From assembly GCF_003614435.1 (NCBI RefSeq), contig NZ_CP025546.1:1054001-1118000 (forward strand): DNA of 64,000 bases, in the 5' to 3' direction. The DNA is from Mycobacterium paragordonae. GTDB lineage: Bacteria > Actinomycetota > Actinomycetes > Mycobacteriales > Mycobacteriaceae. Position numbers and translations under genes: made by a program. The notes beneath the pieces are model-generated. The model was given only the letters and a program-made list of their open reading frames with translations, was not told the DNA's origin and did no database searches. Below are positions 41,819-54,253 of this stretch, piece by piece (positions within the stretch are counted from its first letter, which is position 1; the number at the start of each line of letters is the position of its first letter).

Positions 41819-42181
41819 ACTTATCTACTCTCTCATTCTGAACGGATGCCGAAAAACATCCCGCATCACACTAGCACGGGCGGCCGAGTCGCATTCGCCT
41901 TCGTGCATGAGGTTTCATCACAGGTTCAGACATTGCGATGCTGCGGCACTCGTCTGATCAACGAAACTTATTGCCGTGGACCGTATTTGACTATTTTCGT
42001 AGCTCTCTGCCGGGGTGGCGCCAATATGAAGGTCCCGTATCCCGGCAGTTGATTATCGGCGAATTATCCAGTGCCGCAGCAATAATCCGTGCCGAACCGA
42101 TCGGGATGCTTTCAGAACGCCAACCAAATCACCGGCAGCGCCCAGGCAGTTGACCCGTCAGCCGCGGGCGTCGACGATCGA
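41819..42181. other. 363-bp divergent region between the cold-shock and P450 genes
   Basis: The stretch is AT-richer than its surroundings. It holds the csp leader and promoter. A plus-strand frame extends the P450 back to 42089, but that part has no P450 character. No other element was recognised. Confidence 0.6.
41868..41873 (-). promoter_or_regulatory. Candidate extended -10 box of the cold-shock gene
   Basis: Reading leftward, TGC-TAGTGT makes an extended -10 element. No good -35 accompanies it. The leader of about 43 bases would hold a small hairpin GGATG-TTTTTCGG-CATCC, which might take part in temperature control. Confidence 0.4.
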
Positions 42182-43543
42182 ATGATGCTGCCGACGAACT
42201 CTGCGAAGCTCCCGCCGGGACCCCGGTTACCCAGCTGGGTACTGGCCGCGCTGATGATGGGCCGCGGACCGGCGGCGGTCGCTGCCTGCCAGCGTCGTTT
42301 CGGCAGCGTGTTCACCCTGCGGGTGGCGCTGTTGGGCACCATGGTGTACCTGGGCGACCCCGCGGATATCAAGACCGTATTCGCCGGCGATCCGCGCATC
42401 TTTCACGCCGGTGAAGCCAACAAAATCCTGCGCGGGCTGCTGGGCGACAGCTCACTGCTGGTTATCGACGACGAGGTGCACCGGGAGCGGCGCCGCCTGA
42501 TGCTGCCCCCTTTCCACCGCGACGCCGTGGCCCGGCAGGCGGACCTGATGGCCGAGATCGCCGCGGACAACATCGCCCGATGGCCGGTGGGTCAGTCATT
42601 TGCAGTGGCGCCCAAGATGTCTGAGATCACCCTCGAGGTCATTCTGCGCACGGTGATCGGTGCCTCCGACCCGAGCCGGCTCGCCGCGCTGCGCACGATC
42701 ATGCCGCGGCTGCTCAACCTCGGACCCTGGCAGAGCATCGCCATCGCCAACCCGAAGTTGCTTCGCCGCCGGCCGTGGCGAAACCTGCGCAGGCACATCG
42801 CTGAGGCTGACCGCCTGCTCTACGCCGAAATCGCGGATCGACGCGCGGATCCGGACCTGGCACAGCGGACCGACACCCTGGCGATGTTGGTGCGGGCCGA
42901 CTGTGGGCTGACCGACCGGGAACTCCGCGACCAGTTGATGACCCTGTTGGTGGCCGGCCATGACACTACCGCGACCGCCCTGTCGTGGGCCTTGGAGCGC
43001 CTGACCCGTCACCCCGCCGTCCTGGCCAGAGCGGTCCGGGCGGCCGAGGCCAGCGCGGCGGGTGATCCGTCCGGCGACGAGTACCTCGATGCGGTGGCCA
43101 AGGAGACGCTGCGGGTCCGCCCCGTGGTGTTCGACGTCGGCCGGGTGCTGACCGAACCAGTCGACCTGGCCGGCTACCGGTTGCCCGCCGGAGCCATGGT
43201 GGTCCCGGGAATGGGCCTGGTCCACGCCAGCCCGGCGATATATCCGGATCCGAACCGGTTCGACCCCGACCGGATGCTCGGCGCCGCCCTCAGTCCCAGC
43301 ACGTGGCTTCCGTTCGGTGGCGGCAACCGTCGTTGTATCGGAGCCACCTTCGCCATGGTCGAGTTGCGGGTGGTGCTGCGCGAAATACTGTGCCGGGTGG
43401 AATTGGACACCACGACCGCCGGCGGCGAACGCCAGAAGCTCAAACACGTCATCGTCATTCCGCACCGCGGTGCACGGGTCAGCGTTCGCGCAGTCAGGCC
43501 GGTCGGCTCGGCAGCTCCCGACGCCGGCGCAATCCACCGGTGA
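42182..43543 (+). CDS. Cytochrome P450 (CYP138-like)
   Basis: A 453-residue P450 with a LPPGPRLP start as in CYP132/135/137/138 of mycobacteria, which resemble eukaryotic-type P450s. The haem ligand is Cys385 in FGGGNRRCIGA, the I-helix AGHDTTATAL and the ExxR KETLRVRP. Start: two ATGs in a row (42182, 42185). The downstream PLP enzyme gene overlaps its stop by GTGA, so the two are translationally coupled and may act on one pathway. Confidence 0.92.
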   Translation: MMLPTNSAKLPPGPRLPSWVLAALMMGRGPAAVAACQRRFGSVFTLRVALLGTMVYLGDPADIKTVFAGDPRIFHAGEANKILRGLLGDSSLLVIDDEVHRERRRLMLPPFHRDAVARQADLMAEIAADNIARWPVGQSFAVAPKMSEITLEVILRTVIGASDPSRLAALRTIMPRLLNLGPWQSIAIANPKLLRRRPWRNLRRHIAEADRLLYAEIADRRADPDLAQRTDTLAMLVRADCGLTDRELRDQLMTLLVAGHDTTATALSWALERLTRHPAVLARAVRAAEASAAGDPSGDEYLDAVAKETLRVRPVVFDVGRVLTEPVDLAGYRLPAGAMVVPGMGLVHASPAIYPDPNRFDPDRMLGAALSPSTWLPFGGGNRRCIGATFAMVELRVVLREILCRVELDTTTAGGERQKLKHVIVIPHRGARVSVRAVRPVGSAAPDAGAIHR

Positions 43544-44532
43544 CCACCTACCTCCACGAGCGCTTCCCCGAGCTGCGCGACACACTGCACCGCGCCCAGC
43601 TCGGCGACGGCCCCACGCTCGTGCGCCCACTGCCCGGCCTGAGCGCCTCCGGCCCGTCGCTCTGGCTCAAGGACGACGGCGTCTACGGCAACGGCGGCTG
43701 GGGCGGCAACAAGGTCCGCAAGCTGGAATGGCTCTTACCTGACGTGAAAAGGTCTGGGCGACAGACAATCCTGACCTTCGGCGGACTTGGCACGAACTGG
43801 GGCCTGGCGACCGCACGCTACGGCCGCGATCTCGGCCTGCGCACCGCGCTGGCACTGATCGACCAACCGGTCGACGAACACGTCGCTGCTCAGCTGGAGC
43901 GCTTGCGGGCCTGCGGCGCCGACATCTACTTCACGCACAACAAGTTTCGTACGGTGGCCGCGGTGCCCTACCTGTATCTGCGCCACCGCCGGCCCTATCT
44001 GCTGCCCGCCGGGGGATCTGCACCGCTGGGCGTCGTGGGGTATGTCGAGGCCGCACTGGAAATCGCTGCCCAGGTCGAGACCGGCGCGCTGCCGGCGCCG
44101 GCGTCCGTCGTGGTCGCCGTGGGCTCGGGCGGCACGGTCGCCGGTCTGCACTTGGGTCTCGCGCTGGCCGGTCTCACCAGCACCCGGGTGATCGGCGTGG
44201 TCGTCAACGACACGCTGCGTCTGGACCACCGATCGATCACGTCGCTCGCTGAGCGCGCCGCGCGCCTGCTGCAAAGCCGCGGCGCGCGCGTGCCCGCCAC
44301 CCCGCTGCCGGCGGATCGCCTGCTGCTGGTGCGCGACTGGCTCGGGCAGGGCTACGGCCACCCGACGGCCGAGGGCACCCGGGCGCTGCGGCTCGCGCAC
44401 GACGCGGAGCACCTTGACCTCGAGCCCGTCTACACCGCCAAAGCGATGGCCGCACTCCTGGAACTGCACTCCAGCGGACGGCTACCCGACGGGCCGGCGC
44501 TCTATCTCCACACCAACGGGCCGCGTGGTTAG
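43540..44532 (+). CDS. PLP-dependent enzyme, ACC deaminase / D-cysteine desulfhydrase type
   Basis: A 330-residue fold-type II PLP enzyme. The PLP lysine is probably Lys58 in GGWGGNKVRKLEWLL; TFGGLGTNWG is the N-loop (usually GGxxSNH; here the serine is replaced by Thr and His by Trp) and VAVGSGGTVAGL the phosphate-binding loop. ACC deaminases and D-cysteine desulfhydrases share this fold; the changed N-loop means the substrate could differ. GTG start in the P450 stop. The frame upstream to 43303 is a shadow inside the P450. Confidence 0.85.
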   Translation: MTTYLHERFPELRDTLHRAQLGDGPTLVRPLPGLSASGPSLWLKDDGVYGNGGWGGNKVRKLEWLLPDVKRSGRQTILTFGGLGTNWGLATARYGRDLGLRTALALIDQPVDEHVAAQLERLRACGADIYFTHNKFRTVAAVPYLYLRHRRPYLLPAGGSAPLGVVGYVEAALEIAAQVETGALPAPASVVVAVGSGGTVAGLHLGLALAGLTSTRVIGVVVNDTLRLDHRSITSLAERAARLLQSRGARVPATPLPADRLLLVRDWLGQGYGHPTAEGTRALRLAHDAEHLDLEPVYTAKAMAALLELHSSGRLPDGPALYLHTNGPRG

Positions 44533-44636: not shown

Positions 44637-45818
44637 GTGGTGGAGTTCGAGCTCGACGACGAGCAGCGGGCGTGGCTGGCCGAGGTGCGGCAGTTCCTCC
44701 GGGACAACGTCAACCCTGCGCTGCGTGCCGAGATGGCCGAGCATGACCTCGAATTCCAAGGTGGTGAGCTGACGGCATTCCGCCGCAAGATCGGCGAACG
44801 CGGCTGGTTCGGACTGAACTGGCCACGCGAATACGGCGGACTGGGACTGACCGCCGTCCACCAACACCTGCTGATGAGCGAATTCGAGTACTGGGGCGTG
44901 CCCGGGCCGGACCTCACGGTCACCTCGGTGGCGCCGATGATCATGCGGCACGGCACCGAACAGAACAAGCAGGAATTCCTACCGCCCATCGCCAGGGGTG
45001 AATTGGTCTGCGCCGTCGGCTATTCAGAACCGAACGCCGGCACCGACCTGGCCAGCCTGCGCACCAGGGCCGTGCGCGAGGGCGACGAATGGGTGATCAC
45101 CGGCTCCAAGATCTGGAACAGCGGAGCCCAGCGTTGCACACACGAATGGTTGTGCGTACGAACCGATCCCGACGCGAAACGGCACCGCGGCATCTCGGTG
45201 ATCATGGTGCCCATCGACAGCCCGGGTATCGAAGTCCGGCCGCTGTATGCATGGTCGGGCTACCGCACCAACGAGACGTTCTTCCGCGATGTGCGGGTAC
45301 CACTCGGCAACCTGATCGGTGAGGTGAACAAGGGCTGGACCTACATCACCGGGGCGCTGGATCTGGAGCGCGGCGCGCTGACTAACGCCGGCGATCTGCG
45401 CCGCGCCCTGGATGACCTGGTGGCGCTGGCGGGCCGGCCGCTTCGCGACGGCTCGGTGCCGGCCCACCAACCCGCCTTCCGGCGCCGCCTGGCACAGGCC
45501 GAGGCCGACGTCGAAGCGGCCAGGCTGATGGGATACGAGGCGGCATCCCTGCTCGACAGCGGACGGATACCTTCGGTCGAGGTGAGCGTAGAGAAGATCT
45601 TCACCAGCGAATTGCGCCAGCGCATAGCGGATCTGGCGCTCGATCTGCTGGGCCCGGACGGGCTGCTGGCCCACCGCAGCGCCGCGGCCCCGCTGGCCGG
45701 GTTCTTTGAGCGCCTCTACCGGGTGTCGCCGCTGATGCGCTTCGGTGGCGGCGCCAACGAGGTGCTGCGGGATGTGATCGCCCAGCGTGGCTACGGCATG
45801 CCGTCCTACGGTCGGTGA
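44637..45818 (+). CDS. Acyl-CoA dehydrogenase, large subunit type
   Basis: A 393-residue FadE. GYSEPNAGTDLASLRTRA is the FAD/substrate signature, ITGSKIWNSGA follows, and RFGGGANEVLRDVIAQRGYG the C-terminal one. It begins at one of two adjacent GTGs. The next gene, 4 bp on, encodes a second, shorter FadE. Such pairs form the alpha2-beta2 enzymes (ChsE-type) that oxidise steroid side chains. First of seven closely packed genes. Confidence 0.93.
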   Translation: MVEFELDDEQRAWLAEVRQFLRDNVNPALRAEMAEHDLEFQGGELTAFRRKIGERGWFGLNWPREYGGLGLTAVHQHLLMSEFEYWGVPGPDLTVTSVAPMIMRHGTEQNKQEFLPPIARGELVCAVGYSEPNAGTDLASLRTRAVREGDEWVITGSKIWNSGAQRCTHEWLCVRTDPDAKRHRGISVIMVPIDSPGIEVRPLYAWSGYRTNETFFRDVRVPLGNLIGEVNKGWTYITGALDLERGALTNAGDLRRALDDLVALAGRPLRDGSVPAHQPAFRRRLAQAEADVEAARLMGYEAASLLDSGRIPSVEVSVEKIFTSELRQRIADLALDLLGPDGLLAHRSAAAPLAGFFERLYRVSPLMRFGGGANEVLRDVIAQRGYGMPSYGR

Positions 45819-45822
45819 TCGG

Positions 45823-46929
45823 ATGCGCTTACTTCCCGATCAGGATGAGCGCGATCTGGCCGCCCTGTGCCGCAGCCTGTTGGCCGCGCAGAGTCTCGAC
45901 GGCACGCACGTCCCGCCCACGCTTTTCAAGGCGCTTGCTGACTCCGGCCTGCTCGGCCTGGCGATCGGCGAGGAGTTCGGCGGCGCGGGCGGCACGTTGA
46001 GCGATCTCGGTATCTTCTGCCTCGAGACGGGGCGCGCGTTGTGCCCTAACGCCGTTCACAGCACCCTGCACGCCTCGTTGGCAATTGACTGGCTGGGCGG
46101 CCCTGCCGCGCGCGCCACCTGGTTGCCGCAGCTGACCTCCGGAACGTCGCGCGCCGCAACGGCACTGTGGAGTCCGCGCGACGCGTCCGTGCCGGATTCC
46201 GGCGTGCGCGGATTCGCCGCTGCGGACGGCCGGTGGCGGTTGTCCGGGGTGGCCGACTTCGTCGCCGACGCCGACCTCGCCGACCTGATCGTGGTCGCCG
46301 CGCAAACCGATTCTGCCACTGGCGTTTTCGTCATCGACATGTCGGCCGGCGGGATCATAGTCGAACCGCTGCCGATGATGGGTGGACACCGCGTCTGCAC
46401 GGTCACCTTCGACGACGTGCTGGTGGAGGACGACGAGCGGGTCCTGAGTGCCGATGTCTGCCGCAGTACGTTGCGTCGGGTGGCCAATGCCGCGGTGGCG
46501 TTGCTGTGTCTGGATCTGGTCGGGGTGGGTGAGGCGGTGCTGCAGCGCACCGTGGACCACACCACGATGCGTGAGCAATTCGGCCGGCCGATCGCATCGT
46601 TTCAGGCGGCTCAGCATCTGGTGGCCAACATGCGCATCGCGCTCTCGGCCGCGCGCCTGGCGGCGCAATCGGCGGTGTTCTGGATCGGGCGCGGTCGCAC
46701 CGCGACCCGCGAGACCGCCATCGCCAGGATGCACGCCGCCACCGTCAAGCAGATCACCCTGGACGGGCATCAACTGCACGGCGGGATGGGGTATGTCGTC
46801 GACACCGATCTGCACCTGTTCTCCGAACGCGCCCGGGTGCTGGCGACCTGGGGTGGTGGTGCCGATGAGGCCGCGAAATGGCTTGAGGAAGAGATGAATT
46901 GGGAAGGCAGAGATGGACAGCCTGATTGA
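45823..46929 (+). CDS. Acyl-CoA dehydrogenase, second subunit type
   Basis: A 368-residue FadE. The GEEFGGAGGTLSDL start, the middle region (FVIDMSAGGIIVEPL) and LHGGMGYVVDTDLHLFSERA near the end place it in the family; the FAD-binding loop of the upstream gene is poorly kept in the middle (AATALWSPRDASVPDSG), as expected if one subunit of the pair has degenerated. The ATG at 45823 is preferred over the frame from 45787, which lies inside the previous gene. Overlaps the next gene by 17 bp. Confidence 0.92.
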   Translation: MRLLPDQDERDLAALCRSLLAAQSLDGTHVPPTLFKALADSGLLGLAIGEEFGGAGGTLSDLGIFCLETGRALCPNAVHSTLHASLAIDWLGGPAARATWLPQLTSGTSRAATALWSPRDASVPDSGVRGFAAADGRWRLSGVADFVADADLADLIVVAAQTDSATGVFVIDMSAGGIIVEPLPMMGGHRVCTVTFDDVLVEDDERVLSADVCRSTLRRVANAAVALLCLDLVGVGEAVLQRTVDHTTMREQFGRPIASFQAAQHLVANMRIALSAARLAAQSAVFWIGRGRTATRETAIARMHAATVKQITLDGHQLHGGMGYVVDTDLHLFSERARVLATWGGGADEAAKWLEEEMNWEGRDGQPD

Positions 46930-47410
46930 CCCGGAGTCCGCCGCACGGGTCGGCACCGTGGTGGCGACCGCGACCGGGGAGGTGAACAAGCGGGACTGGC
47001 AACGCTGGGCCGCCGCCGTCGACGATCACAACCCGCTGTGGTTCGACACCGACTATGCCCGCTCGCACGGGTATCGCGACATCATCTGCCCGCCACTGTT
47101 TCTGCAGTACGCCATCCTCGGCGTGACCAAGCTGGGCGACCTGCGGCCCGACGGATCGTCCGGCGCAGTGACCGGCAGCCTGGCCTTCCCACGTGCCCCG
47201 CGGCGTATGGCCGGCGGCGAAAGCACCACCTTCCACGGGCCGGCCTACCACCGCGACGAGATCGAGATGGTGCGCACCATCGAGTCGATCGTGGAAAAGG
47301 AGGGCAGGTCAGGCAGATTCGTGTTGGTGACCTGGCGCGGCGAATACCGCAATCAGCGCCGCGAAATGATCGCCGAGGCCACCATGTCGATGATCGCCAG
47401 GCCCGCATGA
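46913..47410 (+). CDS. MaoC-like hydratase subunit, N-terminal type
   Basis: A 165-residue hot-dog fold protein like the MaoC part of ChsH2: NKRDWQRWAAAVDDHNPLWFDTDYARSHGYRDIICPPLF. The catalytic D-x4-H signature of hydratase 2 enzymes is not complete here, as expected when the partner subunit supplies it. It should pair with the next gene product to hydrate an enoyl-CoA with a bulky side chain. Its stop is overlapped by the next start (ATGA). Confidence 0.88.
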   Translation: MDSLIDPESAARVGTVVATATGEVNKRDWQRWAAAVDDHNPLWFDTDYARSHGYRDIICPPLFLQYAILGVTKLGDLRPDGSSGAVTGSLAFPRAPRRMAGGESTTFHGPAYHRDEIEMVRTIESIVEKEGRSGRFVLVTWRGEYRNQRREMIAEATMSMIARPA

Positions 47411-47832
47411 CCGGCCAGGTGTACCTCGAGGACGTCGAACCCGGTTACGCCATACCGGTGTTGGCCGTCACCGTGACCGAGACACAGATGTTCTTCTTCA
47501 GCGCCGCGACATACAACGGTCATCGCATCCACTACAACAAGGACTTTGCGCGCGACGCCGAAGGCTACGACAACGTGCTGGTGCAGGGCCCCCTGCAGGC
47601 AGCCCTGTTGTCGCGCGCACTCACCGACTGGGTCGGCGGTGCCGGTCGCCTGGTGTCGTTCTCGGTGCAGAACCGGGCCATCGCCTACCCCGGCCAGGAA
47701 TTGCGTTTCGGCGGCGTGGTCACCGGTAAGCGGGATCTGCTGGTAGACCTCGACATCTTCTGCCGGCGTGGGGACGACGTGCTGATGCCGGGGACCGCGA
47801 CCGTCGGATTGCCACGAAGGAACGCCTCGTGA
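47407..47832 (+). CDS. MaoC-like hydratase, catalytic-type subunit
   Basis: A 141-residue hot-dog protein like ChsH1. The hydratase region is AATYNGHRIHYNKDFAR, with candidates Asn and His for the catalytic pair (normally Asp and His), followed by the GYDNVLVQGPLQAALLSR helix. The ATG at 47407 overlaps the previous stop. An upstream frame to 47038 is a shadow in the previous gene. Its stop overlaps the GTG of the thiolase gene. Confidence 0.88.
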   Translation: MTGQVYLEDVEPGYAIPVLAVTVTETQMFFFSAATYNGHRIHYNKDFARDAEGYDNVLVQGPLQAALLSRALTDWVGGAGRLVSFSVQNRAIAYPGQELRFGGVVTGKRDLLVDLDIFCRRGDDVLMPGTATVGLPRRNAS

Positions 47833-49031
47833 CCGGACTGCGCGGCGAGGCCGCCATCATCGGAATCGCCGAACTACCGGCCGAAAAGCGCCAGAGCGCC
47901 CCGCCGTCGTTCACCCTCGATCAATATGCGCGGCTGGCCAGGCTGGTAATCGAGGACGCCGGAGTGAAGGCCGATGTGGTGAATGGTTTGTCGTGCCACG
48001 GCATCACGGAGTCGGACATGTTCGCCCCGGCCACCCTGTCGGAATATCTGGGCATCCCACTGGACTTCGGTGACCGCGTCGACCTGGGCGGGGCCACCGC
48101 CGCCGGCATGGTGTGGCGGGCCGCCGCCGCGGCCGAATTGGGCGTCTGCGACGCGGTGCTGGCGGTCGTCCCCGGATCGCAGGAGATTCCGCGCTCCGCA
48201 ACGCGTCCCGCCCGCACCCTGAGTTGGTACGGGGCGTCGAGCAACAACTACGGTTCGCCGCAGGCCGAGTTCGAGATCCCGTACGGCAACGTCGGCCAGA
48301 ACGCCCCGTATGCGCAGATCGCGCAGCGCTACGCGGCCGAATACGGTTATGACGCGGCCGCATTGGCGAAGATCGCGGTAGACCAGCGGACCAATGCCTG
48401 CGCCCACCCGGCGGCGGTGTTCCACGGCAAGCCGATCACCGTCGATGACGTGCTCAACAGTCCGGTGATCGCCGACCCCATCCACATGCTCGAAACGGTG
48501 ATGCGGGTGCAGGGCGGGGCCGGGGTGCTCATCGCCAACGCCGACGTCGCGCGAAGTTCCCGCCACCGCCCCGTCTGGATCAAGGGTTTCGGCGAGCACA
48601 TCCGATTCAAGACGCCCACCTACGCCGACGACCTGCTGCACACGCCGATGGCCCGGGCGGCCGAGAAGGCTTTTGCGATGGCAGGTTTGGGCCGCGAGGA
48701 CGTCGATGTCGCCTCGATCTACGACTGTTACACCATCACGGTGCTGATGACGTTGGAAGACGCCGGATTCTGCCGCAAGGGCGAGGGCATGGCGTGGTTG
48801 GGCCGGCACGATCTCACCTTCGGCGGCGACTTCCCGCTCAACACCGCCGGCGGTCAACTGTCCTACGGGCAGGCCGGCATGGCCGGCGGTATGCACCACG
48901 TGGTGGACGGGGCCCGTCAGATCATGGGCCGGGCCGAGGCCGCGCAGGTGCGCGACTGTGACACGGCGTTCGTGACCGGCAACGGCGGGATCATGAGTGA
49001 ACAGGTGGCGCTGGTGCTGGGGGGTGACTGA
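47829..49031 (+). CDS. Ltp2-like thiolase-fold lipid-transfer protein / aldolase
   Basis: A 400-residue thiolase superfamily protein. It has the DLGGATAAGMVWRAAAAAELG nucleophile-elbow region, AEFEIPYGNVGQNAPYAQIAQRYAAEYG, DVASIYDCYTITVLMTLEDAG and the glycine-rich close GNGGIMSEQVALVLGG. Ltp2 is a retro-aldolase releasing propionyl-CoA from the steroid side chain when joined to a DUF35 protein; the next gene encodes one. GTG start in the MaoC stop. Confidence 0.92.
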   Translation: MTGLRGEAAIIGIAELPAEKRQSAPPSFTLDQYARLARLVIEDAGVKADVVNGLSCHGITESDMFAPATLSEYLGIPLDFGDRVDLGGATAAGMVWRAAAAAELGVCDAVLAVVPGSQEIPRSATRPARTLSWYGASSNNYGSPQAEFEIPYGNVGQNAPYAQIAQRYAAEYGYDAAALAKIAVDQRTNACAHPAAVFHGKPITVDDVLNSPVIADPIHMLETVMRVQGGAGVLIANADVARSSRHRPVWIKGFGEHIRFKTPTYADDLLHTPMARAAEKAFAMAGLGREDVDVASIYDCYTITVLMTLEDAGFCRKGEGMAWLGRHDLTFGGDFPLNTAGGQLSYGQAGMAGGMHHVVDGARQIMGRAEAAQVRDCDTAFVTGNGGIMSEQVALVLGGD

Positions 49032-49032
49032 G

Positions 49033-49449
49033 ATGACCGAGCCGCGCCCGCTGCCCGAGCCGACACCGGTCTCGCAGCCGTTCTGGGACGCGTTGCGCGA
49101 GCACCGTATTCGGATCCAGTACTCGCCGTCGTCGGACAGTTACGTCTTCTACCCGCGCACCCTGGCACCCGGGACTCTCGCCGACGATCTGGAATGGCGG
49201 GACATCGACGGTGCCGGAACGCTGTACACCTACACCGTCGCCCGCCGCCCGACCGGGCCGCCCTGGGCCGAACACCTGCCGCAGCTGCTCGCGGTCGTGC
49301 AGTGGGATGCCGGGCCGCGGATCAGCACCGAACTGGTCGATATGGAGCCCGAAGAGATTCGCATCGGGATGCGGGTGTCGCCGGTTTTCCACGACGTTCC
49401 CGGCCAGCCGATGACGTTGTTGTACTACACCAAAGAGACTGGTAAGTAA
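49033..49449 (+). CDS. DUF35 OB-fold protein lacking the zinc ribbon
   Basis: A 138-residue protein with the DUF35 pattern: PVSQPFWDALREHRIRIQYSPSSDSYVFYPR, then a GAGTLYTYTVARRP strand and the OB core. The four cysteines that normally bind zinc between these parts are absent; the protein has no cysteine at all. It should dock to the Ltp2-like protein. In the cholesterol igr operon this domain is fused to the MaoC protein ChsH2; here it is a separate gene. The stop overlaps the next ATG (TAATG). Confidence 0.88.
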   Translation: MTEPRPLPEPTPVSQPFWDALREHRIRIQYSPSSDSYVFYPRTLAPGTLADDLEWRDIDGAGTLYTYTVARRPTGPPWAEHLPQLLAVVQWDAGPRISTELVDMEPEEIRIGMRVSPVFHDVPGQPMTLLYYTKETGK

Positions 49450-51032
49450 TGCCTTTCGAGACTATCCAGCAGCTGTTACGTTCTCGCATGGAAGACGACG
49501 GCGTCGCGGTCGCGCACGGTGATCAAACGTGGACGTGGCGCGAGCACCTCGCTGAGGCATCGGCGGAGGCGTCCTTACTGCTCGGGCTGATGGCAGATGA
49601 CCGTCCGCTGCATGTCGGGGCGCTGCTGGGAAATTCTCCGGCGATGTTGCGGTCGATGGCGGCGGCGGCGCTGGGCGGATATGTGTTGTGCGGCATCAAC
49701 ACCACCCGGCGCGGGGAGGGGTTGGCCGCCGACGTCCGCCGGGCTGACTGTCAGATCTTGCTGGTCGACACCGGGCACCGAGGCCTGCTGGACGGTGTGG
49801 ACCTGACCGGAGTGACCGGCGTGAACGTCATTGACGTCGACGCTACGAGTTATCGGAACTCGGTGGCGGCCGCGAAACCGCTTGTGCCCGTTGAGGTGAG
49901 CGGCGCCGATCCGGTGGTGATCATCTTCACGTCCGGCACCAGTGGTGACCCGAAGGCGGTCCGGTTCGCGCACGCGATGGGGGTCATGTGCGGTGCCAGC
50001 CTGGTCGAGCGCTTCGGATTGGCCTCCGACGACGTGTGTTACCTGTCCATGCCGTTGTTTCACTCCAACGGGGTGGCGGCGGGCTGGACAGTGGCGATCT
50101 CCTGTGGCGCGACCATGGTGCCGGCCAAGTTCTCGCCGTCGCGGTTCCTGGCGGAGATCCGCCGCTACGGGGTGACCTACATGAACTACGTCGGCAAGCC
50201 GTTGGCTCTGGTTCTTGCCACCCCCGAGCAGCCCGATGACGCCGACAACCCACTTCGCGCGGCGTTCGGCAACGAGGCCACCGAACACGATCTCGACCGG
50301 TTCGCGCGACGTTTCGGTTGCCGGGTGGTGGACAGCTTCGGCTCCAGCGAGTTCGCCGTCGTCGTGATGCGTGAGGACGGCACCCCACCGGGATCGATCG
50401 GCAAGGGGTATCCCGGCGTCAGCGTGTACCACTCGGAGACCGTAACGGAATGCGCGCCAGCGGTTTTCGACGAGCACGGGGCCCTGGTCAACTTCGACGA
50501 GGCCGTCGGCGAACTGGTCAACACCTTCGGTGCCGGCGGATTCACCGGCTACTACAACGACGCCGATGCCACCGATGAGCGGATGCGCCACGGCATGTAC
50601 TGGTCGGGCGACCTCGCCTACCGGGACGCCGATGGCTGGATCTACCTCGCCGGGCGCACCGCGGACTGGATGCGGGTCGACGGGGAGAATCTGGCGGCTG
50701 GTCCCATCGAGCGGGTGTTGCAGCGGTTGCCGGAGATCAACCACGTCGCTGTGTACGCGGTGCCCGACGACAGTGTCGGCGACCAGGTGATGGCGGCGAT
50801 CGTGTTGAACAACGGAGCGACGCTGACCCCCCGGCAGTTCGGCGACTTCCTCGCTGCGCAATCCGACCTCTCGCCGAAGGCCTGGCCCCGGTACGTGCGG
50901 ATCTCCGCGGCGCTCCCGCGCACCGCCACCAACAAGATTCTCAAACGCGAACTCATCGCCGAGGGCCCGACTGCGGGGGACGGAGTGCTGTGGCAGCGAG
51001 AGGCGAGGGGTCTTCGCTACCGTGCGGGTTAG
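49449..51032 (+). CDS. Acyl-CoA synthetase (FadD17-like)
   Basis: A 527-residue adenylate-forming enzyme. Core motifs are VIIFTSGTSGDPKAVRF, DSFGSSEFAVVV, MYWSGDLAYRDADGWIYLAG and the lysine region RTATNKILKRELI. It resembles FadD17, one of the steroid side-chain ligases of mycobacteria, in the TSGTSGDPKAVRF variant. It most likely makes the acyl-CoA used by the FadE, MaoC and Ltp genes before it; the last gene of the string. Confidence 0.9.
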   Translation: MPFETIQQLLRSRMEDDGVAVAHGDQTWTWREHLAEASAEASLLLGLMADDRPLHVGALLGNSPAMLRSMAAAALGGYVLCGINTTRRGEGLAADVRRADCQILLVDTGHRGLLDGVDLTGVTGVNVIDVDATSYRNSVAAAKPLVPVEVSGADPVVIIFTSGTSGDPKAVRFAHAMGVMCGASLVERFGLASDDVCYLSMPLFHSNGVAAGWTVAISCGATMVPAKFSPSRFLAEIRRYGVTYMNYVGKPLALVLATPEQPDDADNPLRAAFGNEATEHDLDRFARRFGCRVVDSFGSSEFAVVVMREDGTPPGSIGKGYPGVSVYHSETVTECAPAVFDEHGALVNFDEAVGELVNTFGAGGFTGYYNDADATDERMRHGMYWSGDLAYRDADGWIYLAGRTADWMRVDGENLAAGPIERVLQRLPEINHVAVYAVPDDSVGDQVMAAIVLNNGATLTPRQFGDFLAAQSDLSPKAWPRYVRISAALPRTATNKILKRELIAEGPTAGDGVLWQREARGLRYRAG

Positions 51033-51070: not shown

Positions 51071-52024
51071 GTGAACTCTCTCGACTTTGACAGTTGCGAC
51101 CTGGGCGAGACCGAAGAATTCCTGGTGCGCAACTACACCGCGATGCGTATCGGGGCCAACGGTGAAAATCGCCGCGCCCGCATTCAGCGGCGGTGGGCGG
51201 GTCCCGTCACCTTCGACGAGCTGTCGTTCAGTTACGACATGAGCTACAACGCCGACCCGTTGGGCAAGATCCTGTTGTGCCGGGTACACAGCGGGCGGAT
51301 CCTGGAGAATTTCATCGGAGAACCCCAAGATGTGTTCGCTCCCGGCGACGTGACCTTGTTCTCGCCGCCCGAACTGCCTTATTCCGGGCAGGTCTGCCGG
51401 GCCGCCTACGACCTCACAGGGTTGCATCCGACGTTGCTGGACCGCACCGCCAACAGTGCCCCCGGCGCCCGGAACGAGCCGGTGCGATTGACCGGTCATC
51501 GGCCCGTCACGGCCGCGGCCGGCCGACGACTGAGCGCCGTCATCGACTACCTGCGTGACCATGTTCTGTCCGACCCGGTTGCCTGTGCGTCGCCGCTGGT
51601 CAGCGGCACCTTTGCGGCCCATCTCGCGGCCGCGGTGCTGGCTGCCCTCCCGAGCAACGCCTTGCTCGATCCCACTCCCACCGACCGCCGGGACGCCGCC
51701 AAACCGGTGCTGCTGCGGCGGGTGATTGCGTTCATCGAGGAGAACGCGCACCGGGACATCATGCTGGGCGATATCGCCGACCACGTCTACGTAACGCCGC
51801 GGACCCTGCAGTACATGTTCCGTCACCACCTGGACTGCACGCCCATGGACTACCTGCGTCGGGTCCGGCTGCATCGCGCCCACCACGAGTTGCTCATTGG
51901 GACACGTGAGTCCGCCACCGTCACGCAGATCGCCAATCGATGGGGTTTCGCCCACGTGGGCAGGTTCGCCGCCTATTACCGGCAGATCTACGGACGCTCA
52001 CCGCACGACACATTGCGCAACTGA
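51071..52024 (+). CDS. AraC-family transcriptional regulator
   Basis: A 317-residue regulator. The N-terminal half (residues 1-190) resembles AraC-binding-like domains; the C-terminal part is the two-HTH AraC domain (RRVIAFIEENAHRDIMLGDIADHVYVTPRTLQYMFRHHL, then WGFAHVGRFAAYYRQIYGRSPHD). The GTG start has GGAGG upstream. Being 38 bp after the FadD gene it is probably in the same transcript and controls the catabolic string, perhaps by a steroid or acyl-CoA effector. Confidence 0.93.
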   Translation: MNSLDFDSCDLGETEEFLVRNYTAMRIGANGENRRARIQRRWAGPVTFDELSFSYDMSYNADPLGKILLCRVHSGRILENFIGEPQDVFAPGDVTLFSPPELPYSGQVCRAAYDLTGLHPTLLDRTANSAPGARNEPVRLTGHRPVTAAAGRRLSAVIDYLRDHVLSDPVACASPLVSGTFAAHLAAAVLAALPSNALLDPTPTDRRDAAKPVLLRRVIAFIEENAHRDIMLGDIADHVYVTPRTLQYMFRHHLDCTPMDYLRRVRLHRAHHELLIGTRESATVTQIANRWGFAHVGRFAAYYRQIYGRSPHDTLRN

Positions 52025-52990: not shown

Positions 52991-54253
52991 TCAGTTTTCG
53001 TATTTTGGCTGCCCGCCGCAACCGCCCTGATACTCGACCGGCCAATGCTTGATGCCGGTGATGAACGGTGACCGCAGTCGCTCCGGATCCCCGGCCGACG
53101 CCAGATCGGGCATGGTGTCGGCGATCGCATTGAACATCAGGTCGATGGTCATGCGCGCCAGGTTGGCGCCGATGCAGTAGTGCGCTCCGGTACCGCCGAA
53201 ACCGACGTGTGGGTTCGGGCTGCGCAGGATGTCGAACCGGTAAGGGTCCGCGAAAACGTCCTCGTCGAAGTTGGCCGACCGGTAGAACATCACCAACCGC
53301 TGGCCCTTCTTGATGGCCACCCCACCAAGTGCGGTGTCCGCCAACGCAGTTCGCTGGAACGCGGTGATCGGCGTGGCCCAGCGGATGATCTCGTCGGCGG
53401 TGGTGGCGGGGCGATGAGCTTTGAACAGCTCCCACTGCTCCGGAAAGTCGGTGAAGGCCATCATGCCTTGCGTGATCGAGTTTCGGGTCGTCTCGTTGCC
53501 GGCGATGGCCAGCGTGACCACGAACATGCCGAATTCGGCCTCGGTGAGCCGCTGGCCGTCGGCGTCGGCCCGGATCAGCGTGGTCACGATGTCATCACCG
53601 GGCTCCGTCGCCCTGCGTTCGGCCAATTGCATGGCGTACCACATCATTTCGGCCGCCGAGGTCAGCGAGTCGTGGTCGGCGAATTCCGGGTCGTCGGCGC
53701 CGATCATCTGATTGGACCAGTCGAACAGCTTGTCGCGATCCTCGGCCGGAACGCCGAGCAACCCGGCGATCGCCTGCAACGGCAGCTCGCACGCCACCTG
53801 CCTGACGAAGTCACCCGAACCCTGTGCCGCAGCCTGGGCGGCGATCTGGCGGGCACGCTCGGCAAGATCGGCGCGCAAGCGTTCTACGGCGCGGGGGGTG
53901 AACCCGCGCGCGATGATTTTGCGTAGGCGGCTGTGCTCGGGGTCGTCCATCATGATCATCGATGCCCGCCCGAGCTCGATTTGGGCCTGCGCCGCCTCCT
54001 GCGGGTAACGCGGCACCACGGATTTCTCGGCCGACGAGAAGACGTCGCTGCGCAGCGAGACCTCGCGAACGTCACAGTGCTTGCTCACCACCCAGTAGCC
54101 GCCGTCGCCGAAGCCGCCCTGATCGAGCGGCTGGTCGTTCCACCAGATCGGCGCAGTGGCGCGCAGCTCCGCGAGCTCTTGAACCGGCAACCGGTGCGCA
54201 TAAATGTCGGGGTCGGTGAAATCGAATCCTGGCGGCAGGTTCGGGGCGGCCAT
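52991..54253 (-). CDS. CYP125-family cytochrome P450 (steroid side-chain hydroxylase paralogue)
   Basis: A 420-residue P450. The N-terminus PNLPPGFDFTDPDIYAHRLPV and long stretches after it are nearly those of M. tuberculosis CYP125, which oxidises the terminal (C26) methyl of cholest-4-en-3-one. The haem ligand is Cys360 in FGGTGAHYCIGA, the I-helix AGNETTRNS is at 251-259 and the ExxR is EIIR (288-291). Its C-terminus is longer by a few residues (GGCGGQPKYEN). Its place near a side-chain degradation string argues for a related steroid substrate. Confidence 0.93.
   Translation of the reverse strand: MAAPNLPPGFDFTDPDIYAHRLPVQELAELRATAPIWWNDQPLDQGGFGDGGYWVVSKHCDVREVSLRSDVFSSAEKSVVPRYPQEAAQAQIELGRASMIMMDDPEHSRLRKIIARGFTPRAVERLRADLAERARQIAAQAAAQGSGDFVRQVACELPLQAIAGLLGVPAEDRDKLFDWSNQMIGADDPEFADHDSLTSAAEMMWYAMQLAERRATEPGDDIVTTLIRADADGQRLTEAEFGMFVVTLAIAGNETTRNSITQGMMAFTDFPEQWELFKAHRPATTADEIIRWATPITAFQRTALADTALGGVAIKKGQRLVMFYRSANFDEDVFADPYRFDILRSPNPHVGFGGTGAHYCIGANLARMTIDLMFNAIADTMPDLASAGDPERLRSPFITGIKHWPVEYQGGCGGQPKYEN

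Follow-up and report, generated by a model that had tools for sequence, protein, structure and literature searches.

The window, a stretch of 64,000 nucleotides from Mycobacterium paragordonae (contig NZ_CP025546.1, positions 1,054,001 to 1,118,000), contains a candidate operon for steroid side-chain degradation at positions 44637-51032. The genome carrying it has a size of 7.22 Mb, and the nearest named species, as judged by the aldolase of this operon, is Mycobacterium gordonae (91-92% identity). The operon comprises seven genes on the + strand, with neighbours overlapping by 1-35 bases, in the order FadE-alpha, FadE-beta, MaoC-a, MaoC-b, aldolase, free DUF35, and FadD. FadE-alpha (44637-45818) and FadE-beta (45787-46929) are acyl-CoA dehydrogenase (ACAD) subunits of the Pfam family ACAD; the first carries the Glu that is catalytic in the alpha subunits of steroid ACADs, and the second is a partner subunit without this residue. 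MaoC-a (46913-47410; Pfam FAS1_DH_region, MaoC-like) and MaoC-b (47407-47832; Pfam MaoC) are hotdog hydratase subunits, the latter with an NGHRIHY motif. The start of MaoC-b is taken as the ATG at 47407, where the proteins of its relatives start, and the mechanical list of open reading frames has 47038. The aldolase (47829-49031; Pfam Thiolase_C_1) is a Sal-clade steroid aldolase with a thiolase fold. Its partner is a free-standing DUF35 protein (48997-49449; Pfam OB_ChsH2_C) that lacks zinc-finger cysteines, and FadD (49449-51032; Pfam AMP-binding) is an acyl-CoA ligase of the FadD1 family. The initial annotation of this DNA described seven overlapping genes with these domains, a complete gene set from activation to retro-aldol cleavage, a DUF35 not fused to MaoC, and a FadD inside the string, all of which agree with the coordinates, strand, and domain content found here.

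The best match of the aldolase in the PDB is CtSal (9myr, E-value 1e-131), followed by an entry named 'Thiolase' (4u4e, 9e-55) and TcLtp2 (6ok1, 1e-37). The aldolase is 53% identical to CtSal and 31% identical to the Ltp2 of its own genome. It keeps the YDCY motif with the catalytic Tyr302 and Cys304, as well as Gln161, Gln347, and Gln352; the motif of the own Ltp2 is YDHF. The motif and the glutamines are those given for CtSal in PMC12329534. A tree of 35 rows places the aldolase inside the Sal family and apart from Ltp2, with a support of 98/93 for the node that joins the proteobacterial and actinobacterial Sal proteins. The family splits into proteobacterial Sal and two actinobacterial groups, A and B. 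Group A (100/99) comprises the window aldolase, other mycobacteria, Nocardioides, and one Rhodococcus plasmid protein, and group B includes a second aldolase copy of the same genome (C1:278838, locus L023). The two groups join at 87/86, or at 92/87 together with a row from Rhodococcus DMU1, both values being under the starred support level. In the actinobacterial Sal clade, every one of the 20 rows has a shorter β2-α2 loop and lacks His59, a residue proposed in PMC12329534 to clash with or exclude flat sterols. With its place in the Sal clade and YDCY instead of YDHF, the aldolase is not the Ltp2-like enzyme of the initial annotation.

The DUF35 partner is a separate protein of 150 amino acids with zero Cys in the finger region. 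The Cys3His1 zinc finger of the proteobacterial Shy DUF35 partner was sought and is absent from the window and from all 76 related loci in which a DUF35 was matched; the finger cysteines are also absent from the own group B copy and from two Rhodococcus plasmid copies. Because this finger is absent, the window aldolase and DUF35 are placed with the aldolase clade and not with the proteobacterial Shy/Sal pair.

The FadE-alpha subunit matches Tcur3483 (E-value 8e-83) and chain A of 4x28 (4e-77), and its catalytic Glu is kept in the window and in 7 of 7 relatives. In a tree it is sister to, and outside, the group of the own FadE26, the own FadE29, Tcur3483, ChsE4, and a protein of locus L027 (85/87). 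FadE-beta lacks the catalytic Glu in the window and in 5 of 5 relatives, and belongs to a clade (100/99) with the own FadE27, FadE28, L027b, and the N-halves of two fused ACADs. The N-halves are its nearest relatives, with weak support (82/71). The names FadE26 to FadE29, ChsH1, and ChsH2 for loci of this genome are presumed from neighbouring genes and general knowledge. The pair matches the division of heteromeric steroid ACADs into an alpha subunit with Glu and a beta subunit without Glu. The PDB matches of both hydratase subunits are weak, the best being 1.2e-4 for MaoC-a, and an itaconyl-CoA hydratase (8e-10) and a ChsH chain (8e-5) for MaoC-b. In MaoC-a, the His of active hydratases is replaced by Trp or Tyr in 73 of 79 relatives, and the remaining 6 have no match to the pattern. 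The MaoC-b motif NGHRIHYD is found in 76 of 80 relatives, and the window has Asn for the last Asp.

The ligase passes the NCBIfam cut-off for FadD1 (919 bits against 800) and misses that for FadD17 (580 bits against 850), so that the name 'FadD17-like' gives way to the FadD1 family. Its score with the CasI profile is 517 bits. A second FadD1-family copy of the same genome, 66% identical to the operon FadD, scores 1011, and the operon enzyme may thus be paralogous to FadD1 proper.

Conservation was counted in 80 related loci from named genomes, which are the best 80 of 387 relatives (aldolase identity 78-93%), so that the counts describe close kin. The six-gene core is found in order in 70 loci, three of them from Nocardioides, and all seven genes are in order in 65, where extra genes in between are allowed, as in Nocardioides. 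Several of the 10 loci without the ordered core are contigs that end early. Since the core order is kept in 70 of the 80 loci, the seven-gene arrangement is more than chance.

A CYP125 gene lies 2 kb downstream of the string, at 52991-54253 on the - strand. It belongs to the steroid C26-monooxygenase family and is a second copy in the genome, 66% identical to the CYP125 copy beside the igr operon. Its PDB match is 3ivy (E-value 2.9e-192), and solved CYP125 chains score above other cytochrome P450s. CYP125 at an identity of at least 60% occurs in 24 of the 80 loci, always on the - strand and downstream in 21. This gene was passed over in the initial annotation. Extra CYP125s of M. neoaurum are reported to oxidise sterol chain ends (PMC13254585). 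In other genera, a plasmid of Rhodococcus qingshengii carries the same core with a 73%-identical aldolase, and a KshA_C oxygenase lies next to it. A CasG-like ligase is present in two of the three named Nocardioides loci, the third ending before that place; one piece scores 725 bits (cut-off 750, with the N-terminus uncovered), and a piece of 227 amino acids scores 345 bits.

The KstR operator consensus is taken to be TNNAACNNGTTNNA, and the KstR2 consensus is assumed in the same way. The window has no exact KstR site, and its 7 matches to this assumed consensus with one mismatch compare with 6.2 expected, whereas the own igr locus has 3 exact sites. Exact sites are likewise absent from all 77 promoters (the window and 76 loci), and one-mismatch sites occur in 5. 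Control by KstR or KstR2 was rejected from these searches with presumed consensus sites. A Sal-type match at an E-value of 1e-100 or better is found in 133 of 198 genomes of the genus, and a copy at an identity of at least 76%, taken as the A type by its identity band, in 66 of the 198 sampled. A search of the phylum gives a match at 1e-70 or better in 11 of 396 genomes, all in the genus of the window; the Nocardioides and Rhodococcus relatives come from other searches than this survey.

The operon resembles Sal/Shy of Comamonas testosteroni, which acts on the C5 side chain of bile acids (9myr), in its aldolase with 53% identity and the same Tyr/Cys motif and Gln residues, its DUF35 partner, and the hydratase encoded alongside. 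In contrast, its DUF35 is free and lacks zinc cysteines (fused, with Cys3His1, in Sal/Shy), it has two MaoC proteins for one Shy, His59 and Arg216 are absent, and FadD and a nearby CYP125 are present. It shares with Atf1/ChsH4 a Sal-type aldolase and a free DUF35 in a mycobacterium. Knock-out and complementation in M. neoaurum, as reported in PMC10398937, indicate that both Atf1, with 56% identity to Sal1, and ChsH4, a free DUF35 protein, are needed for a route cutting C22-C23, and the HBC operon is given there as atf1-chsH4-chsE6-kstR3. Similar aldolase genes, named thl, are reported in PMC12409849. In the genome of the window, locus L023 (8588-12453, equal to C1:276588-280453) comprises a fused ACAD of 745 amino acids, a Sal-type aldolase (65%), and a zinc-free DUF35 (64%). 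This group B paralog is perhaps an Atf1/ChsH4-type operon. Group B served as a control, with 20 loci hand-picked for long contigs with about 9 kb per side. Neither a Baeyer-Villiger monooxygenase (BVMO), nor an esterase, nor either MaoC is found in any of these 20 loci; the FadD-like matches (3 loci) do not exceed 28%, the single P450 match is 30%, and a fused ACAD of at least 64% is present in 12. Since the control loci are without BVMO, esterase, and MaoC and without a close FadD or P450, the group A set is a distinct module.

Considering the families, clade, catalytic residues, gene order, and neighbours observed, the operon is probably a complete, KstR-independent, Sal-type retro-aldol module for the side chain of a sterol-derived acyl-CoA. 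The link to steroids is drawn because a second CYP125 is nearby and because KshA_C and CasG-like neighbours are found in other genera. A steroid-type reading is also suggested because the FadD17 and CasI scores put FadD near steroid ligases, and because the ACADs show the alpha/beta split. In being of the steroid type, the enzymes agree with the initial annotation. The steroid substrate, the reactions, their order, and the bond cut are predictions from sequence. CYP125 would oxidise the side-chain end, and the FadD1-family ligase would form the CoA thioester, or recharge the acid left after the cut. The FadE-alpha/beta heteromer would then introduce an α,β double bond, which the MaoC-a/b pair would hydrate. 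In the last step, the Sal-type aldolase, bound by its free DUF35 partner, would perform the retro-aldol C-C cut, the products being an aldehyde or ketone together with acetyl-CoA or propionyl-CoA. With Sal and Atf1 taken as analogues, the bond most likely to be cut is C22-C23 of a C5 chain, which is the first guess because the Atf1/ChsH4 route cuts C22-C23. C24-C25 of the intact chain comes next, with CYP125 and a C26-type start; this cut would yield an aldehyde product from cholesterol and a ketone from C24-branched sterols.

Several observations weigh against this interpretation. CYP125 is without a sighting in the examined flanks of 56 of the 80 loci, and the lineage of the window (L062-L064) has CYP125 and neither BVMO nor esterase nearby. 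The CoA-binding Arg216 of CtSal is Pro in the window aldolase; the R216A change lowered the activity of CtSal and did not abolish it (PMC12329534). The YDCY motif is also found in three more distant plasmid relatives outside the Sal clade (Mesorhizobium, Sulfitobacter, and RHA1), and is thus unspecific when taken alone. The Mesorhizobium and Sulfitobacter relatives have non-steroid neighbours (acetoacetyl-CoA ligase and sugar transport), and the RHA1 relative is without annotation. The zinc-free DUF35 was rejected as a special hallmark of Sal, since the DUF35 domain of the own ChsH2 (L025) also lacks zinc cysteines, though TcChsH2 has them. The Asp of the motif RDFQDVHH in the own small igr MaoC is Asn in MaoC-b, and hydratase catalysis must therefore differ.

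The alternative that survives best, although a doubtful one, is a relay of retro-aldol and Baeyer-Villiger reactions acting on side chains that are alkyl-branched at the β-carbon, such as those of C24-branched phytosterols. Hydration would give a tertiary alcohol, the aldolase a ketone and propionyl-CoA, and the Baeyer-Villiger enzyme an ester, which the esterase would split. Of the 80 window-type loci, 59 have a BVMO-like gene and 58 an esterase of the HSL family (at least 45% identity), compared with none of the 20 group B loci; 48 of the BVMO-like genes and 46 of the esterase genes are located, in the same orientation, between those for the aldolase and FadD. When only the 66 loci with a length of 16 kb or more are counted, the BVMO-like gene and the esterase each occur in 53, and CYP125 in 20. 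Both enzymes suit a ketone product, the HSL motifs are intact in 43 of 44 called esterase proteins, and the Nocardioides loci add a carboxylase subunit, alcohol and aldehyde dehydrogenases, and the CasG-like ligase. The fingerprint FxGxxxHxxxW, presumed to be that of type I Baeyer-Villiger enzymes, speaks against the relay. In an alignment of 57 BVMO-like sequences, its F, G, and W are present in all 57, but its His in only 7, with Phe or Tyr in the other 50; because of this replacement, Baeyer-Villiger activity does not seem assured. Moreover, the lineage of the window lacks both genes nearby, and the identity of the best BVMO and esterase copies elsewhere in the genome is 53% and 47%, respectively. 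Published work also ties C24-branched sterols to FadD19, Ltp3, and Ltp4, reported as necessary for them in PMC6273163, and one reviewed scheme for these sterols includes C28 carboxylation (PMC3546705). The Nocardioides carboxylase subunit could fit either the relay or the C28-carboxylation scheme. It is unlikely that the conserved locus is such a relay outside KstR control, removing C24-branched side-chain ends, with the resulting acid going to a steroid-24-oyl-CoA ligase and C28 carboxylation being unneeded.

That the operon serves branched or isoprenoid acyl-CoAs unrelated to steroids is distinctly improbable. The three distant YDCY relatives, two of them among non-steroid genes, and the itaconyl-CoA hydratase as the best PDB match of MaoC-b (8e-10) are in line with it, but CYP125, KshA_C, and CasG-like neighbours in different genera and the steroid-type heteromeric ACAD are not.

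The proposal of the initial annotation, a second igr operon acting on a C3 (isopropionyl) side chain, is in line with the set of activities shared with igr (an ACAD pair, a MaoC pair, an aldolase, and DUF35), but is very improbable given the Sal-clade aldolase with 31% identity to the own Ltp2 and YDCY instead of YDHF, the place of FadE-alpha outside the group of FadE26, FadE29, Tcur3483, and L027 (85/87), and a better candidate at L027. The true igr is found elsewhere in the genome (L025), with CYP125, an ACAD pair, a fused MaoC-DUF35, a small MaoC, and an Ltp2-type aldolase, and the operon as a moved igr copy was therefore rejected. The igr set (FadE28-FadE29-ChsH1-ChsH2-Ltp2) and the operon share an ACAD heteromer, a MaoC pair, and a thiolase-fold aldolase with DUF35. 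Unlike the operon, igr has an aldolase of the Ltp2 clade with YDHF, a DUF35 fused to MaoC, KstR sites, and no FadD in the string (own L025). Locus L027 (C1:5217322-5223410) comprises a CYP, FadE, MaoC, a free DUF35 with four Cys, FadE, MaoC, and an Ltp2-type aldolase with YDHF (68% to the own Ltp2), and fits a second igr better than the window operon. The own locus L163 (FadE26-FadE27-FadD17) is similar to the operon in having an ACAD heteromer followed by a related ligase. However, it has FadD17 proper (973 bits) and no hydratase, aldolase, or DUF35 match in the 19 kb examined.

The neighbourhood of the string shows further features. The AraC-family regulator said to follow it is present at 51071-52024 on the + strand and may have a role in the operon, but is lineage-specific (2 of 80 loci). 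Just upstream, at 42089-44532, are P450 and D-cysteine desulfhydrase-like (PALP) genes, found in 5 and 3 of the 80 loci, respectively, and only in loci of the M. gordonae/asiaticum type. The Nocardioides loci (L121, L136, and L138) have two CaiB-type transferases inserted into the core, and contain an acyl-CoA carboxylase subunit, a BVMO-like enzyme, an esterase, and an aldehyde dehydrogenase; two of these three loci also have an alcohol dehydrogenase. The R. qingshengii plasmid (NZ_CP147922.1, typed mobilizable, L159) comprises an ABC importer, an ACAD pair, two CoA-transferases, a MaoC pair, Sal, DUF35, SDRs, a BVMO-like enzyme, and a KshA-type oxygenase, and is possibly a mobile steroid pathway. 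In the Mesorhizobium and Sulfitobacter plasmids (L188 and L189), the YDCY aldolase is found with an acetoacetyl-CoA ligase, a zinc-ribbon (DUF35-like) protein, MaoC, and sugar transport genes, and these aldolase operons are probably non-steroid. A BVMO in a Vibrio plasmid locus was rejected, its flavoenzyme being Oxidored_FMN.

A literature search, with most subscription journals outside it, found no title or abstract describing the operon. In the literature searched, actinobacterial Sal-type cutting is so far described for Atf1/ChsH4, a short operon without its own hydratase or ligase. The window operon would add a self-contained, widely kept actinobacterial Sal-type module that encodes ligase, ACAD, and hydratase itself and has a sterol P450 nearby; it points to a KstR-independent sterol route. 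For the production of C22 or C24 steroid synthons it may be a source of new partner enzymes (aldolase, hydratase, and ACAD), and the loss of the branch from C24-branched sterols would become directly testable.

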